Shown: positions 5,582 to 14,385 of the stretch, piece after piece
Numbering within the stretch: position 1 is the stretch's first letter
Layout of the letters: the number at the start of each line of letters is the position of its first letter
Virus record (IMG/VR): IMGVR_UViG_3300050343_000189
Span: 1-61,036 of that record
DNA from: a virus
Reading direction: 5' to 3' (one strand)
DNA length: 61,036 bases
The notes under the pieces: generated by a model
The model's database searches: none
Told to the model about the DNA's origin: nothing
Seen by the model: only the letters and a program-made list of their open reading frames with translations
Position numbers and translations under genes: made by a program

Positions 5582-5647
5582 CTTACTTTACCTAAGAGTA
5601 AGTGGTGCGGATGGGGTACTCCCGCCCTGTTTCTTGCTTCAGGTAAA
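5582..5647 (+). other. Gene-free stretch with competing stem-loops
   Basis: No gene is seen from 5566 to 5738. TTTACCT (5587-5593) pairs with AGGTAAA (5641-5647), while CTTACT (5582-5587) can instead pair with AGTAAG (5597-5602). The two pairings exclude each other. The interior is GC-rich for this genome. Confidence 0.35.
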
Positions 5648-5678
5648 AGAGCAAGTGGCGTGCATGACAAGACCTTCA

Positions 5679-5714
5679 AAGACCCTTGACAACAAGGGTC
5701 TTTTTTTGTATGAT
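5679..5714 (+). promoter_or_regulatory. Terminator overlapping the promoter of the glycan cluster
   Basis: AAGACCCTT (5679-5687) pairs with AAGGGTCTT (5694-5702), followed by a T run: an intrinsic terminator. TTGACA (5686-5691) begins in the stem and fills the loop; 17 bases on is TATGAT (5709-5714). One element can thus end the upstream transcript and start the cluster beginning at 5739. Confidence 0.8.
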
Positions 5715-5738
5715 ATATAAGAAGAAACTTTTTTATTA

Positions 5739-6809
5739 ATGTCTGAATATAAGAAGACTGCACTGGTTCTTGGTGCTGGTGGATTTATTGGAAGTCATAT
5801 GGTTAAACGACTACGTTCAGAAGGATACTGGGTGCGTGGTGTTGATCTTAAGTATCCTGAGTTCTCTGACACAGAAGCAAATGAATTTGTTCAAGGAGAC
5901 TTGCGTGATGTAACTTTTGTTCCGTGTCATTCAGTTTAAAGGTACAAGGTAATTTCTATAACTCTGTTCCTTATCGTTTGTATCCGTCCTTTTGATGAGA
6001 TCTATCAGTTTGCTGCTGATATGGGTGGAGCAGGATTTGTATTCACTGGTGAGAATGATGCAGACATCATGCACAACTCTGTCACTATCAACTTGAATGT
6101 TCTTGAAGAAGTTCGTAAACTGAATGAAACCTTTGATGGTGTAGAGAAGGAACTGGATGAATGTAATCGTCCTGCTTTGGAACAACCTACTAAAATCTTT
6201 CTACTCTGGTTCAGCATGTATGTATCCAGAGCACAATCAACTAGACCCTGATAATCCAGACTGTCGTGAAGAATCAGCATACCCAGCAAACCCAGACTCA
6301 GAATATGGATGGGAGAAACTCTTTCAGTGAGCGTCTCTACTTTGCTTACAATCGCAACCATGGCATCCCTGTTCGGATTGCTAGGTATCACAACATTTTT
6401 GGACCTGAAGGAACCTGGGACGGTGGAAGAGAGAAGGCACCAGCTGCAATCTGCCGTAAAGTTGCTTACCTCCCGGAGTCAGGTGGAGCAATCGAGGTGT
6501 GGGGAGATGGCTTACAAACTCGTTCCTTCCTGTTCATTGACGAATGCATTGAAGCAACTACAGAATGATGAATCAGTGACTTCATGGGACCAGTTAATAT
6601 TGGTTCTGAAGAGATGGTTACTATTAATCAACTTGTAGATACTGCTGCTAAGTTGCTGGTAAAGAAGTCTCTAAGATTCATATTGATGGACCTCTTGGAG
6701 TTCGTGGACGTAACTCTAATAATGATTTGATTCGTGAGAACTTGGTTGGGATTATTCTCAAACTCTTGAAGAGGGTATTCGTAAAACTTATAATTGGATT
6801 GTTTTGTAA
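5739..6809 (+). CDS. GDP-mannose 3,5-epimerase-like NAD-dependent sugar epimerase, frameshifted
   Basis: First gene of the glycan cluster. The N-terminus TALVLGAGGFIGSHMVKRL is a Rossmann GxxGxxG motif. ADMGGAGFVFTGENDADIMH, the region around YGWEK (catalytic Tyr-x-x-x-Lys) and RYHNIFGPEGTWDGGREKAP fit GDP-mannose 3,5-epimerases, which convert GDP-mannose to GDP-galactose or gulose forms. At least five shifts (near 5930, 5985, 6195, 6320, 6565 and later) are needed. The repaired length, about 350 residues, is normal for the family. The end is NIGSEEMVTINQLVDTAAK ... YNWIVL. Confidence 0.85.
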
Positions 6810-8400: not shown

Positions 8401-8880
8401 TAGAGTATAAAGGAGATACATATCCACACTTTCAAACAATTGGCAATGCATCGCAGTTTGCTATTCCATTTGCTAAACATGTTTGTAGTGGGTATGGATA
8501 TGATATTGGATGTATGAAGAAGGAATGGTCTTTCCCAGATTCTGTTCCTATTGACCTATCATTTGATAATGGATGGGAAGCAGATAATCTTCCACCTGTT
8601 GAACCTGACTACATTTTTTCTAGTCATTGTCTAGAACATGTTCCTGATTGGGTTGCTACAATGGATTATTGGTATGCAAGACTCAAACTGGGAGGTGTTT
8701 TGTTCCTCTATCTTCCTGATTATAGTCAGAAGTATTGGAGACCTTGGAACAATAGAAGACATAAGCACTGCTTGAAACCTGAATTCATTCTATGATTACA
8801 TGATTGATAAGGGATATAAGAATGTCTTTGTATCGGGTATTGATTTAAATAACGCATTTATGATTATGGGGGAAAAATGA
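8391..8880 (+). CDS. Class I SAM-dependent methyltransferase, frameshifted near the end
   Basis: GYDIGC (motif I), PIDLS, then DYIFSSHCLEHVPDW and LKLGGVLFLYLPD, the order of a methyltransferase-11-type fold. The frame shifts near 8785 and continues YDYMIDKGYKNVFVSG to a TGA at 8878-8880 that overlaps the next ATG. About 163 residues. It probably methylates a sugar or a glycan end. Confidence 0.75.
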
Positions 8881-9734
8881 AAAAGATTTTAGTTTCTACT
8901 TGGTGTACTGATGATTATGCAGAACTTTTGGGTGTAGAAAAACTAGCTAACTCAATTAAATATTTTCATCCAGAGGTGGATCATGTTATCTTTGATACTA
9001 AGATGACTGAACAGATACATTCTGAAATGCCATGGATGAAACCTATTTGGATGATGGCAGCCACTTGTCTTCCTTTTGTTGAGGAATACGATATGGTTGT
9101 TCATTTGGATGCTGATGCTGTCGTTACTGGACCAATGACCGAGTTCTTTGAGAGTGAAGAAGACATTATTGGGGTTCGAAATAATAACTCTTTAGACAAA
9201 GCATCTGGACATGACTTTGGTATAACAATTACTCATCTTCCACCGTTTGGAAATGGTCAGCAGATTCCAATCCAAAACTTTATCAATGCTGGCATGATTG
9301 GTGCTAACAACAAAGAGTTCTGGGTAGACTGGCACGATGTAAACAAGCAGTCGGCTAAGATTAAAACAGAAGTTAATCCTTATGCTCATGGTATTGGTGA
9401 TGAACAAGATACTCTGAATCAAATATTTCATTCAGGAGAATATACTACTAAGATTGTAGATGCCATGGGATCAAATGTTTCCTATGGTATTTCTAATCAT
9501 TGGGGTAAGAACGATAACCATTGGGAAAGTTGGTCGCAAATTTACGTAAAAGGTGATAGACTATACCTTGATGATCCTAAGACAGGGGAACCGATGTGTA
9601 TTAAAGTCATGCACCAAGCTGGTGGACATGCTGCAGCACAATTAAATAGAGGAGCAGGTGGATTTAGAAATTGGTTGTCCTCTGTTGTATCTGACGAAGT
9701 TAATGACTACTTGAATGAGGTTCAAAATGGTTGA
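8877..9734 (+). CDS. GT-A type glycosyltransferase (GT8-like, DxD motif)
   Basis: 285 residues, intact. MVVHLDADAVVTGP carries the DxD metal site used by GT-A nucleotide-sugar transferases, with the strand-then-DADA arrangement of GT8-like enzymes. A later FINAGMIGANN and GDEQDTLNQIF are typical acceptor-side motifs. The ATGA overlap with the methyltransferase shows tight coupling. Confidence 0.75.
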   Translation: MKKILVSTWCTDDYAELLGVEKLANSIKYFHPEVDHVIFDTKMTEQIHSEMPWMKPIWMMAATCLPFVEEYDMVVHLDADAVVTGPMTEFFESEEDIIGVRNNNSLDKASGHDFGITITHLPPFGNGQQIPIQNFINAGMIGANNKEFWVDWHDVNKQSAKIKTEVNPYAHGIGDEQDTLNQIFHSGEYTTKIVDAMGSNVSYGISNHWGKNDNHWESWSQIYVKGDRLYLDDPKTGEPMCIKVMHQAGGHAAAQLNRGAGGFRNWLSSVVSDEVNDYLNEVQNG

Positions 9735-10999
9735 TATTGAAGCACTTCTTGAGGGTGTAAATCCACCCTACTTTGCTAATAGTAAGTGGGAACCAGGCAA
9801 TCCTGTATATTATTCTGGTCCTTACTGGGATAATCAAGAGTTGGGAGCAGCTGTCAATGGACTTCTGAATGGTAAGTGGTTACCATCTGGTGAGAAGGTA
9901 TATGAGTTTGAGAAGAAGTTCTCTAAACAATTTAACAAGGGACACTCTTTGATGGTGAACTCTGGTAGTTCTGCCAACCTGGTTATGATTGCTGCTCTGA
10001 AGAAAAGATTTGGTTGGCAGGATGGTGACGAGATCATTGTGTCATGTGTTGGTTTTCCTACCACCATTGCTCCGATCGTTCAGAATGGTTTGAAACCAGT
10101 CTTTGTTGACATCGACTTCTCTGATCTAAATTGGAGTATTGATGAGATTGAGGAAAAGGTTTCTACTAAGACCCGTGCCCTGTTCTCTTCTCCTGTTCTT
10201 GGTAATTCTTATAACTTAGGTGATGTTCTAGATATCTGTGATCGTAACAAAATCATGTTGATCTCAGATAATTGTGACAGTCTGGGTAGTAAGTGGAATG
10301 GTTCCTTTCTTACTGATCACTCTATTGCTGCTTCTTGTTCTTTTTATCCTGCTCATCATATCTGCACAGGTGAGGGTGGTATGATCTCTTCTGATGATGA
10401 GGAACTGATCAATATTGCCCGTAGTCTGGCATGGTGGGGTCGTGATTGCTATTGTGTAGGTCAGCAGAACCTGCTTGCTTGTGGCACTTGTGGTAAGAGA
10501 TTTGATAAGTGGATTGAGCATTATGATGGTATCATTGATCACAAGTATGTGTATTCTCAGATGGGATACAATCTCAAACCTATGGACTTCCAAGGTGCTA
10601 TTGGCACTGTGCAACTGACTAAACAAGATGAGATTCATCGGTTGCGTCGTAAGAATAAGATTCTGATGCAGGAAATCTTTGAACGTATTCCTGGTGTTCG
10701 TAGTGTGGATGAACTTCCTGAAGCAGAGACCAGTTGGTTTGGTGTCCCTATTATCTGTGATAGTGCGGATACTAAGGTTAGACTGACAAAACATTTGGAG
10801 GATAATAAAGTTCAGACTCGTAACTACTTTGCAGGTAATATTCTGATGCATCCTGGATATAGGCATCTTGATTACTATCGAAACTATCCGAATGCTTGTA
10901 AGGTGCTTGACCTTAGTATTCTTTGTTGGTTGTTCTCCTACAATTACTGAGGATATGATTGAATATGTTGGAACTGTAGTTGATTCTTTTGAGAAATGA
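9727..10999 (+). CDS. rfbH: RfbH-type sugar 3-dehydrase (DegT/DnrJ aminotransferase family), frameshifted at the end
   Basis: PLP/PMP-dependent enzyme that removes the 3-hydroxyl of a 4-keto-6-deoxy nucleotide sugar, giving 3,6-dideoxy sugars. The fold is DegT-like (NSGSSANLVMIAAL; SDNCDSLG). The usual Schiff-base lysine is replaced by histidine in SFYPAHHICTGEGG, the mark of the E1/ColD dehydrases. CYC...CGTCGKRF supplies cysteines for the [2Fe-2S] cluster of E1. Start MVDIEALLEG at 9727. A shift near 10912 moves the end to FVGCSPTITEDMIEY and a TGA at 10997-10999. About 424 residues. Confidence 0.88.
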
Positions 11000-12682
11000 G
11001 AGTAGCAGATTATGTGATCGACCAGATTTACAAGGCAGGTTGTGAACATATCTTCCTTGTAACTGGTGGTGGGAGCGATGTTTTTAAATGATGCAATTGC
11101 TGCTCATGAAAAAATTGAACCAGTTTGTAATCATCATGAACAAGCATGTGCAATGGGTGCAGTCGCATATGCAAAATATAAAAATAGTCTAGGTGCCGTT
11201 TGTGTTACCACAGGATGTGGTGGAACTAATGCAATTACTGGTCTTCTGGATGCATGGCAGGATAGTGTTCCTGTTATTTTTGTGTCTGGCAATGTAAATA
11301 GACCACATATGGCTCCTGCAGGTGTAAGAAATCTTGGAGTTCAGGAAGCAAACATTATTGATATTGTAAAACCAATCACTAAGTATGCAACTGTGGTTGA
11401 AGATCCTGAGATGATTGATGAGGTAATGAAAGATGCGATTCGTATTGCTACTCATGGTCGTCCTGGTCCTGTATGGATCGATATTCCTATGGATGTACAG
11501 GGTGTTGAATGTTTTAGTATTGAGGATGCCGTAAAGAGGGCAAAGAGACCTTTGATTCTTGCTGGTAATGGTATCAACTGTGCTCAAGCAAGAGAAGAGT
11601 TTAAGTTCTTTGTTGACCAGACAAACATTCCAGTTGTTACTTCATACAATGGTGTTGATCTTATTTCCTCTGATGATAGAAACTATGTTGGTAGAGTTGG
11701 AGTAAAGGGAACTCGTTCTGGCAACTTTGCAATGCAAAATTGTGATCTACTTCTTGTGATTGGTTGCCGTCTTCCTGTTCCTGTGACTGGATATAACTAT
11801 AAAACTTTTGCTAGAGAAGCAGAAGTTATTGTTGTTGATATTGATAAGGATGAACACTCAAAGGATACAGTAAAGATTGATAGATTTATTAATCGTGATG
11901 CAAAAAACTTTCTTGATCTTTACTGGTTTGATCGTAGTAAGAGTGATTGGAATTATCTTTGCGAAGAGTGGAAAGAAAAATGGCCAGTGTGTCCTACAGA
12001 AAATTCATCTGAAAAAGTAGATCTCTATTACTTCATGCAATGTCTGAATACTTTAAAGAGAGATGACGATGTTTTAATTTCTGATGCAGGTTCTGCATTC
12101 TATGTTTGTTCTCAAGCAACTACAATTAAAAATCAACAGAGATATATCACATCTAGTTCTCAAGCAGAGATGGGATTTACAATTCCTGCTTGCATTGGTG
12201 CTGCATTTGCCAAGTATGGAGATGTAATTGGTGTAACTGGAGATGGTTCTTTTATGATGAACCTACAAGAACTTCAGACTATCAAACACTACAACCTTCC
12301 TATCAAGTTGTTTGTATGGAATAATGACGGATACCTCTCTATTCGCACAACTCAAAAGAAATTTTTTGAGGGTAGGGAAATCGGAACAGATGCTGAAAGT
12401 GGTGTCTCTATCCCAAGCATCCGTGATGTGGTAAAGAGTTTTGGTATTGAACACATTTATGCTGATGCAAAAGGTCTAGAACATGCAGTTCAAACTACTC
12501 TTGATTGTAGTGGTCCTATTGTATGTGAGGTCCTTTGTGAGAAGTGGCAGGAAGTTGTTCCTACAATGCAAGGTAGAAAAAATGCAGATGGTACGATTAG
12601 CGCACCACCTTTAGAAGATATGTATCCTTTCTTGTCAAGAAAGGAATTTTATGATAACATGATTATTAAGCCCTTAGACTAA
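10996..12682 (+). CDS. ThDP-dependent enzyme of the acetolactate synthase family
   Basis: Start at the ATGA overlap: MRVADYVIDQIYKAGCEHIF then GGG and, after one shift near 11078, MFLNDAIAAHEK. NHHEQACAMGA contains the Glu that activates the thiamine ring. GDGSFMMNLQELQTIKHYN followed by WNNDGY is the ThDP/Mg2+ motif (GDG ... NN). About 560 residues, full length. In sugar clusters, related enzymes (YerE type) attach a two-carbon unit to a keto sugar; sitting next to an RfbH-type dehydrase supports such a role, but this is inference. Confidence 0.85.
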
Positions 12683-12683
12683 T

Positions 12684-13550
12684 ATGCCTGCTGATAATAA
12701 AGATAAGGTAACTATTCTAAAGTTACGCAAACAAAAAAAGAACAAGGTAAAGACTGTTGGTGTTACCGCATATGATTATCCACAAGCATTGATGGCAGAC
12801 AATGCTGGTGTTGATTGGATTCTTGTTGGTGATTCTCTTGGTATGACCACTCTAGGTTACAAGAGCACCATTCCAGTGACTATGGATGATATGCTTCGTT
12901 CTGCTGGAGCAGTGTCCCGTGGTTCTAACCGTGCATTCACTGTAGGGGATATGCCCTATATGTCCTATCAAATTTCTAATGAAGAAGCAGTAAGAAATGC
13001 TGGAGACTTCATCAAGGCAGGTATGGATGCTGTAAAGGTTGAAGGTTGTATGGTAGAACGTATCAAAGCAATCTGTGATTCTGGTATCATGGTGATGAGT
13101 CATCTAGGATTGACCCCGCATACTCGCGCAAAACTGGGTGGATATCGTGTTCAGGGTAAGACTGCTGATCAGGCAAAAGTTATTCTTGATCAGGCACTAC
13201 GCCTTCAAGATGCTGGATGCACTTTCTTACTTCTTGAGGGTATGCCTAGAGAGTCTGCTGAAATGATTGCAACTAACTTAGATATTCCTGTATATGGAAT
13301 TGGTGCTGGAGACAGAGTTGACGGTCAGTTGGTTATTATGCATGACTTGGTTGGACTTTTCTGGGAGTTTAAATCTAAGTTTGTTAAACGTTATTGTGAA
13401 GCAGGTCAAATGATTCAGTCTGCTCTCACTGATTATGTTAATGAAGTTCGAGATCTTCAGTTCCCTGCACAAGAGAACTTCTATGAGATCAAAGATGAAG
13501 AACTTGAAAAACTTTTAGGACAAGGAGCAGGTTGGAAACATGACAAGTAA
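12684..13550 (+). CDS. panB: PanB: 3-methyl-2-oxobutanoate hydroxymethyltransferase homologue
   Basis: 288 residues, intact. WILVGDSLGMTTLGY, MPYMSYQ, VKVEGC, MSHLGLTP, GGYRVQGKT, LLEGMP and IGAGDRVDGQ appear in the order of PanB, the TIM-barrel enzyme that adds a hydroxymethyl group from methylene-tetrahydrofolate to ketoisovalerate on the way to pantothenate. It sits inside a glycan operon, one base after the ThDP enzyme and overlapping the next epimerase, so its substrate may be different here. No other pantothenate gene is near. Confidence 0.88.
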   Translation: MPADNKDKVTILKLRKQKKNKVKTVGVTAYDYPQALMADNAGVDWILVGDSLGMTTLGYKSTIPVTMDDMLRSAGAVSRGSNRAFTVGDMPYMSYQISNEEAVRNAGDFIKAGMDAVKVEGCMVERIKAICDSGIMVMSHLGLTPHTRAKLGGYRVQGKTADQAKVILDQALRLQDAGCTFLLLEGMPRESAEMIATNLDIPVYGIGAGDRVDGQLVIMHDLVGLFWEFKSKFVKRYCEAGQMIQSALTDYVNEVRDLQFPAQENFYEIKDEELEKLLGQGAGWKHDK

Positions 13551-14385
13551 AAAGATTCTTTTCACTGGTGGTAATGGTTTTATTGGTCGTCAGATTATTC
13601 CCTTCATTCAGGAAGCAGGATATGAGATAGTTAGACCCAGATCAACTCAGGTTCGACTTCAGGTTGATGAAGAAGTTGCTACCCTATTTGATGATGGTCA
13701 ACACTATGATGCAATCATTCATGCTGCCATTGTCGGTGGTAGAAGAGATCTTGATGATGATTATAGAGTTCTGTATACTAATCTCAATATGTTTGAGACT
13801 CTGTATAAGTATGTTGATCAGACTGACATGTTCATCAATCTGGATAGTGGTGCATCATATGGTCGTCCTGCTCCCGTTGATGAACCCTCACCAGAAGACT
13901 TTGGTAAAGTTATTCCAAGTGATCCATATGGATTCTCAAAATATGTTATTGCCAAACGTGTATTAGATAATCCAAAGGGTGTGAATCTTCGCATCTTTGG
14001 ATGCTTTGGTGAGCATGAAGAGAGCACACGATTCTTTAACACTAACATCAATCAATATATTGACAAGAAACCTATTCAACTTGTCAAAGATCGGAAGATG
14101 GATTTTATCTTTGCTGATGACCTCTACAAGATTGTTAAGTATTATCTTGATGGTAATTATGGACCCAAAGATGTGAATTGTGTTTATGATCGTAAGTATA
14201 TGCTCAGTGATATTGCTGAGATTATCAATCACTTAGGACCTTACAAGGTTGATATTCAATCTGAAGGACAGCATCCTATATTTCCGTATGTTGGAAAAGC
14301 AAATAACTTGCCTATTGAATATAGTGGTTTAGTAAATGGAATTCGCAAAGTCTATGAAACATATCTTTGTCAACGGAACGTTTGA
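13540..14385 (+). CDS. NAD-dependent epimerase/dehydratase (extended SDR)
   Basis: 281 residues. KILFTGGNGFIGRQII is the Rossmann motif; INLDSGASYG and PYGFSKY give the Ser and Tyr-x-x-x-Lys catalytic residues. A DFIFADDLYKIV stretch is typical of nucleotide-sugar epimerases or reductases. It overlaps PanB by 11 bases and the next gene by 32. The exact sugar is unknown. Confidence 0.82.
   Translation: MTSKKILFTGGNGFIGRQIIPFIQEAGYEIVRPRSTQVRLQVDEEVATLFDDGQHYDAIIHAAIVGGRRDLDDDYRVLYTNLNMFETLYKYVDQTDMFINLDSGASYGRPAPVDEPSPEDFGKVIPSDPYGFSKYVIAKRVLDNPKGVNLRIFGCFGEHEESTRFFNTNINQYIDKKPIQLVKDRKMDFIFADDLYKIVKYYLDGNYGPKDVNCVYDRKYMLSDIAEIINHLGPYKVDIQSEGQHPIFPYVGKANNLPIEYSGLVNGIRKVYETYLCQRNV

Follow-up and report, generated by a model that had tools for sequence, protein, structure and literature searches.

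PanB-family enzymes beside YerE-like carboligases in marine phage glycan clusters: probable makers of the side-chain donor of a branched deoxysugar

Three adjoining genes of a viral DNA of 61,036 nucleotides (IMG/VR record IMGVR_UViG_3300050343_000189, positions 1 to 61,036, the whole of which is called the window here) code for an RfbH-type sugar 3-dehydrase, a thiamine diphosphate (ThDP) enzyme and a PanB-family enzyme. These genes probably encode a phage-borne pathway to a branched deoxysugar, in which PanB makes the donor of the side chain. We also favour, a little less firmly, the wider proposal that PanB has been recruited at least twice from vitamin synthesis as a maker of 4-hydroxy-2-oxo-acid donors for sugar branching, yielding an undescribed hydroxyalkyl-branched 3-deoxy sugar on glycans at the surface of marine bacteria or of the phages that infect them. 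The psbA, psbD, thyX, phoH, single-stranded-DNA-binding protein, baseplate and tail-tube genes of the window identify a T4-like cyanophage, and the genes for RfbH, the ThDP enzyme and PanB lie, in that order, inside a glycan cluster that spans about 5-24 kb.

The genes are all on the + strand and tightly packed. RfbH (9715..10999, starting at 9715 or 9727) and the ThDP gene (10996..12682) share the bases ATGA (10996-10999), one base (12683) separates the ThDP gene from PanB (12684..13550), and PanB overlaps by 11 bases (13540-13550) a gene for an NAD-dependent epimerase/short-chain dehydrogenase/reductase (SDR; 13540..14385; PF01370), the proposed reductase of the branch ketone, which is homologous to the SDRs of other ThDP cassettes (34% for L123, 26% for L204). 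An earlier note, made from the sequence of this DNA alone, had described three genes of these families with these touching or overlapping junctions; the junctions are as it gave them, and profile and solved-structure matches confirm the place and family of each gene. It had also taken the trio as one unit, which holds in that 79 of 80 viral contigs have the ThDP gene next to PanB, but the unit comprises at least four genes, the SDR being a member. The genes are not all intact in the window, where one extra base breaks the frame of RfbH (near 10920) and another that of the ThDP gene (near 11075). In a second contig (L004), 99.1% identical to the window over 7.2 kb, RfbH (427 aa), the ThDP enzyme (561 aa) and PanB (288 aa) are unbroken and the junctions identical; because these copies are intact, the breaks in the window are sequencing or assembly errors. 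Throughout the window, single-base frameshifts interrupt many genes, as happens when a long-read assembly has not been error-corrected.

When viral contigs were scanned with the PanB of the window, 99 relatives came up, of which 80 loci were examined (PanB 71-100% identical, falling into 42 clusters at 95% identity and 24 at 90%), and a scan with the ThDP enzyme gave 60 loci; these counts are of contigs, many of them fragments, and not of independent events. A ThDP open reading frame (ORF) lies at most 104 nt from PanB on the same strand in 79 of the 80 contigs, the remaining one being cut at its edge, and this arrangement is far beyond chance. Searched for in host and phage genomes, the unit stays together in these 80 contigs and also in a handful of cellular genomes. 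The compactness of the PanB clade and the swapping of phage glycan clusters as blocks could also be explained if the genes were mere passengers, co-inherited as one mobile block with no joint reaction. We consider this scarcely credible, as the gene order is variable (ThDP upstream of PanB in some contigs and downstream in others, RfbH near or far) and the viral PanB clade pairs in the tree with at least three distant ThDP lineages, so that the bond between PanB and ThDP is not merely the descent of one block. Furthermore, in a PanB tree that leaves out L220 and the longest branches, the PanB of a Lachnospiraceae locus (L204, PanB-ThDP-rfbF) groups with Bacillota PanBs, and monophyly of all cassette PanBs is rejected (p-AU 9e-7). 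This separate origin means that recruitment of PanB occurred at least twice.

The ThDP enzyme has three domains. The best solved match of the intact L004 copy is 8rph (371 bits, 9.5e-110), which is JanthE, a YerE-like enzyme (PMC12188165), followed by acetolactate synthase II (231 bits, 3.4e-67). The same copy falls below the acetolactate synthase cut-offs (330.6 vs 538 bits for TIGR00118, 346.9 vs 738 for PRK08978). In the tree, the phage enzyme groups with JanthE and with the ThDP enzymes of Lachnospirales, which sit in cassettes with rfbF, rfbG, rfbH and an SDR gene, apart from the acetolactate synthases of the hosts. To judge by sequence, the nearer relatives of the phage enzyme are characterised YerE-like enzymes, not acetolactate synthase; an acetolactate synthase acting in an acetolactate-valine-pantothenate route was rejected because of the match to JanthE, the gene context and the phylogeny. 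In another contig (L141:9917-11922) the ThDP gene is interrupted by an ORF (10429-10962) that resembles an HNH homing endonuclease and may lie in an intron.

The phylogeny of PanB points in the same direction. The window protein matches PF02548 with 323 bits, and in the tree the viral PanBs make up one clade, well supported and separate from the canonical enzymes of Prochlorococcus and Pelagibacter; the check proposed earlier, whether this PanB groups with host pantothenate enzymes, thus gives a negative answer. No panC was found beside a clade PanB among the loci read. A second PanB is present in five of the six genomes that contain a clade or cassette PanB (G001, G003, G004, G005 and G305, but not the single-cell genome G002), and in G004 and G005 panC adjoins that other copy; it should be kept in mind that a phage contig bears the clade PanB of G003 and that no ThDP gene adjoins the one of G005 (L147). 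A PanB match at E <=1e-60 came from only two of 300 Prochlorococcus-family genomes, in one case on a phage contig. The window PanB does not appear to be of the pantothenate-pathway type, as it neither groups with canonical or host PanBs nor lies beside panC.

These results bear on the function hitherto given to viral panB. KEGG-type annotation places both families in one pathway and PanB exceeds an equivalog cut-off, in keeping with an auxiliary role in vitamin B5 and coenzyme A (CoA) metabolism, where the ThDP enzyme would be an acetolactate synthase, PanB would form ketopantoate, and host pantothenate would be raised during infection. The pantoate transferase of oxygen-minimum-zone viruses, the most abundant viral vitamin gene in a survey, has already been read in this way, with a boost of pantothenate and CoA proposed (PMC8940887). 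For the genes described here we find such a role very unlikely: the ThDP enzyme is YerE-like and far under every acetolactate synthase cut-off, a 3-dehydrase, and in the loci read no panC, accompanies this PanB, host genomes keep a PanB of their own outside the viral clade, and NeuB-like genes substitute for PanB beside related ThDP genes, which would be senseless for CoA. Since the viral clade stands apart from host pantothenate PanBs, the vitamin-B5 role published for viral panB probably does not hold for this clade.

The genes that replace PanB suggest what it contributes. Across the 60 viral ThDP loci, the neighbour is PanB in 39, a NeuB-like gene in 16 and an HpcH/HpaI-like gene in 2, while 3 loci are cut off beside ThDP and none has two such neighbours; the NeuB count leaves out the 25-35% 'NeuB' matches in PanB loci, which stem from the cupin part of a fused query. 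Five of 20 Lachnospirales ThDP loci have a DRE-TIM aldolase, in one case above the cut-off for 4-hydroxy-2-oxovalerate aldolase, and two have a NeuB-like gene. NeuB, HpcH/HpaI aldolases, 4-hydroxy-2-oxo-acid aldolases and PanB all yield 2-oxo acids that are hydroxylated at C4. ErwE, a YerE-like enzyme, rejects pyruvate and prefers 4-hydroxy-2-oxo-acid donors (PMC12247030), and wild-type PanB supplied with formaldehyde converts many 2-oxo acids into 3-substituted 4-hydroxy-2-oxoacids (PMC7611260). Because mutually exclusive neighbours share a product type, and in view of the donor preference of ErwE and the breadth of PanB, we propose that PanB fills the slot of a donor synthase. In a second viral pair, a YerE-like ThDP gene adjoins a divergent member of the NeuB family, accompanied by an SDR and often by a DegT enzyme of the His type described below (L122-L135, L138 and L140); this pair resembles a sister cassette for a branched sugar.

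Sugars of this kind commonly bear acyl decorations, and the hydroxy acid made by PanB might instead be attached as an acyl group, or the keto sugar be hydroxymethylated directly, with the ThDP enzyme using pyruvate like YerE. Pyruvate is indeed the substrate of YerE (PMC12247030). This alternative is nevertheless unlikely, given that the loci read show neither an acyltransferase nor a ligase as a regular neighbour and that exclusive replacement by NeuB-like or HpcH-like genes implies one common product type. Moreover, PanB requires a 2-oxo acid for metal binding.

A clue to the acceptor sugar comes from RfbH. The window protein belongs to the DegT/RfbH family (PF01041, 231 bits), its best solved match is CDP-4-keto-6-deoxyglucose-3-dehydrase (3bcx/3bb8; 4.9e-70 for 3bcx), and it keeps the His that stands for the pyridoxal phosphate (PLP) lysine as well as the four iron-sulphur cysteines; with the curated RfbH model PRK15407, both the window protein (341 bits) and the intact copy (363) are under the cut-off of 423. 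Replacement of the PLP lysine by His characterises sugar 3-dehydrases (E1, ColD). A DegT-family enzyme is present in 71 of the 80 viral PanB loci, most of the remaining nine being short or cut, and the DegT ORFs have His at this position in 75/75 and Lys in 0/75, while being of several types (RfbH with iron-sulphur cysteines, ColD-like, one without cysteines). An aminotransferase making an aminosugar was ruled out by this His. The window thus unites a 3-dehydrase, a YerE-like enzyme and an SDR, which adjoins the pair in loci of the window type. Isolated Synechococcus phages have an RfbH 66% identical to that of the window in a glycan cluster devoid of ThDP and PanB genes (L003:8941-10236, Synechococcus phage RN05-S), so RfbH can occur without this pair. 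Concerning the nucleotide, an RmlB-like (dTDP-glucose-4,6-dehydratase-like) gene is near 37 of the 80 viral PanB loci, that of L004 scoring above the dTDP-glucose 4,6-dehydratase cut-off, and no rfbG match above 150 bits was found in the 80; the CDP sugar first suggested may therefore be a dTDP sugar in viruses. Where the window corresponds to L004 here (5594-6799, against L004:2-2179), it lacks the RmlB-like gene that L004 has at 141-1082, a case of mosaicism between near-identical phages.

The pathway that we propose would start with RfbH, whose residues and family suggest that it strips the C3 hydroxyl from a nucleoside diphosphate-4-keto-6-deoxyhexose to give a 4-keto-3-deoxy sugar. PanB, following the known chemistry of its family, would join the one-carbon unit of methylene-tetrahydrofolate to a 2-oxo acid and so form a 4-hydroxy-2-oxo acid. 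The YerE-like enzyme, as its homology to JanthE and the example of ErwE suggest, would decarboxylate this acid and put the hydroxyacyl unit on the C4 ketone, producing a branched tertiary alcohol; the SDR would reduce the new ketone, and glycosyltransferases of the cluster would set the sugar onto a host or virion glycan. A branched 3-deoxy sugar of YerE type had been put forward in the earlier note and is favoured by the JanthE match and the His-type 3-dehydrase. The two-carbon branch envisaged there is probably longer and hydroxylated, by analogy with ErwE, and PanB, probably rightly placed outside pantothenate synthesis, is more likely to supply the ThDP enzyme with its donor than to act on the glycan itself.

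Several observations weigh against this proposal. The window PanB is above the curated pantothenate-enzyme cut-off (TIGR00222, 277.7 bits vs 207.6), and the catalytic residues D50, S51, D89, K118, E120, H140 and E185 are all retained in a residue check of 88 sequences; with this cut-off passed and the active site unchanged, sequence alone is no proof of a new substrate, and positions I202 and I212 (E. coli numbering) give no clear specificity signal, I202 being kept and I212 being Leu in all. The two HpcH/HpaI-like neighbours are weak model matches, and 13 of the 20 Lachnospirales loci have no recognised donor-making neighbour. No gene for a 4,6-dehydratase, rfbF/rfbG or the RfbH reductase (E3) is present among the genes of the window, so the sugar must be supplied by the host or by the unsequenced part of the genome. 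Finally, a Marinimicrobia single-cell genome has a PanB nested in the viral clade, in a chromosomal polysaccharide locus (L144:9983-10927), likely through exchange between phage and cell; this glycan locus has PanB, and the incomplete genome has no YerE-like ThDP gene.

Upstream of the unit, a GT8-like glycosyltransferase gene (8877..9734, + strand; PF01501 22.1 bits, just under the cut-off) overlaps RfbH within the surrounding glycan cluster. No close PanB was found in phage isolates, the nearest (46%) being that of Microcystis phage MaAM05, where a stretch with panB, panC and sufBCDS (L002, 255417-272160) resembles bacterial DNA in a record named as phage. Two cyanobacterial and Pelagibacter contigs of metagenome-assembled genomes with a clade PanB (L238 and L239) carry T4-like phage genes and were excluded from the cellular counts. 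Similar B12-binding radical-SAM-like genes are near PanB-ThDP in a Chloroflexi genome (L146:6014-7528) and in the phage contig L238 (10531-12018), perhaps for further C-methylation. In a Prochlorococcus single-cell genome (L143:258-4633), a split transketolase comes after PanB-ThDP, with heptose-type genes close by, in what may be DNA of host or phage.

Our work proposes a function, open to testing, for a gene of marine viruses until now read as a vitamin-B5 auxiliary gene and links phage glycan clusters to branched-sugar chemistry. The rule that a viral YerE-like ThDP gene goes with one 2-oxo-acid-forming enzyme could predict the donors of structurally uncharacterised branched sugars, and it points to new enzymes for tertiary alcohol synthesis. 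A full-text literature search, with subscription papers and an in-silico survey of YerE-like clusters outside its reach, did not turn up any report of PanB next to a YerE-like enzyme.

Among known systems, ketopantoate hydroxymethyltransferase (PanB; 1m3u, 1o66) shares its fold family and all catalytic residues with the phage PanB, which differs in its separate clade, its glycan context without panC and its occurrence as a paralogue in cells with a canonical PanB. The yersiniose A pathway (PMC12247030) likewise forms a 4-keto-3,6-dideoxy sugar by way of a 3-dehydrase, attaches a carbon branch with a ThDP enzyme from the same subclass and has an SDR nearby; however, it is cellular, employs a CDP-sugar and has no PanB, YerE using pyruvate and needing no donor-making gene. 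In the erwiniose pathway of a plant-associated bacterium, ErwE transfers a hydroxylated 2-oxo acid donor onto a 4-keto-3,6-dideoxy sugar, although no PanB is reported and the source of the donor is not stated (PMC12247030). JanthE (8rph; PMC12188165), the best solved match, takes 4-hydroxy-2-oxovalerate with benzaldehyde and has a CDG motif where the phage enzyme has GDG. The Lachnospirales rfbF-rfbG-rfbH-ThDP-SDR cassettes (L292-L311, L204) are cellular, contain CDP-glucose genes and have PanB in one only of those read, but they share with the phage unit the ThDP family, the 3-dehydrase and the SDR, and beside ThDP some have a DRE-TIM or NeuB-like gene and L204 has PanB.

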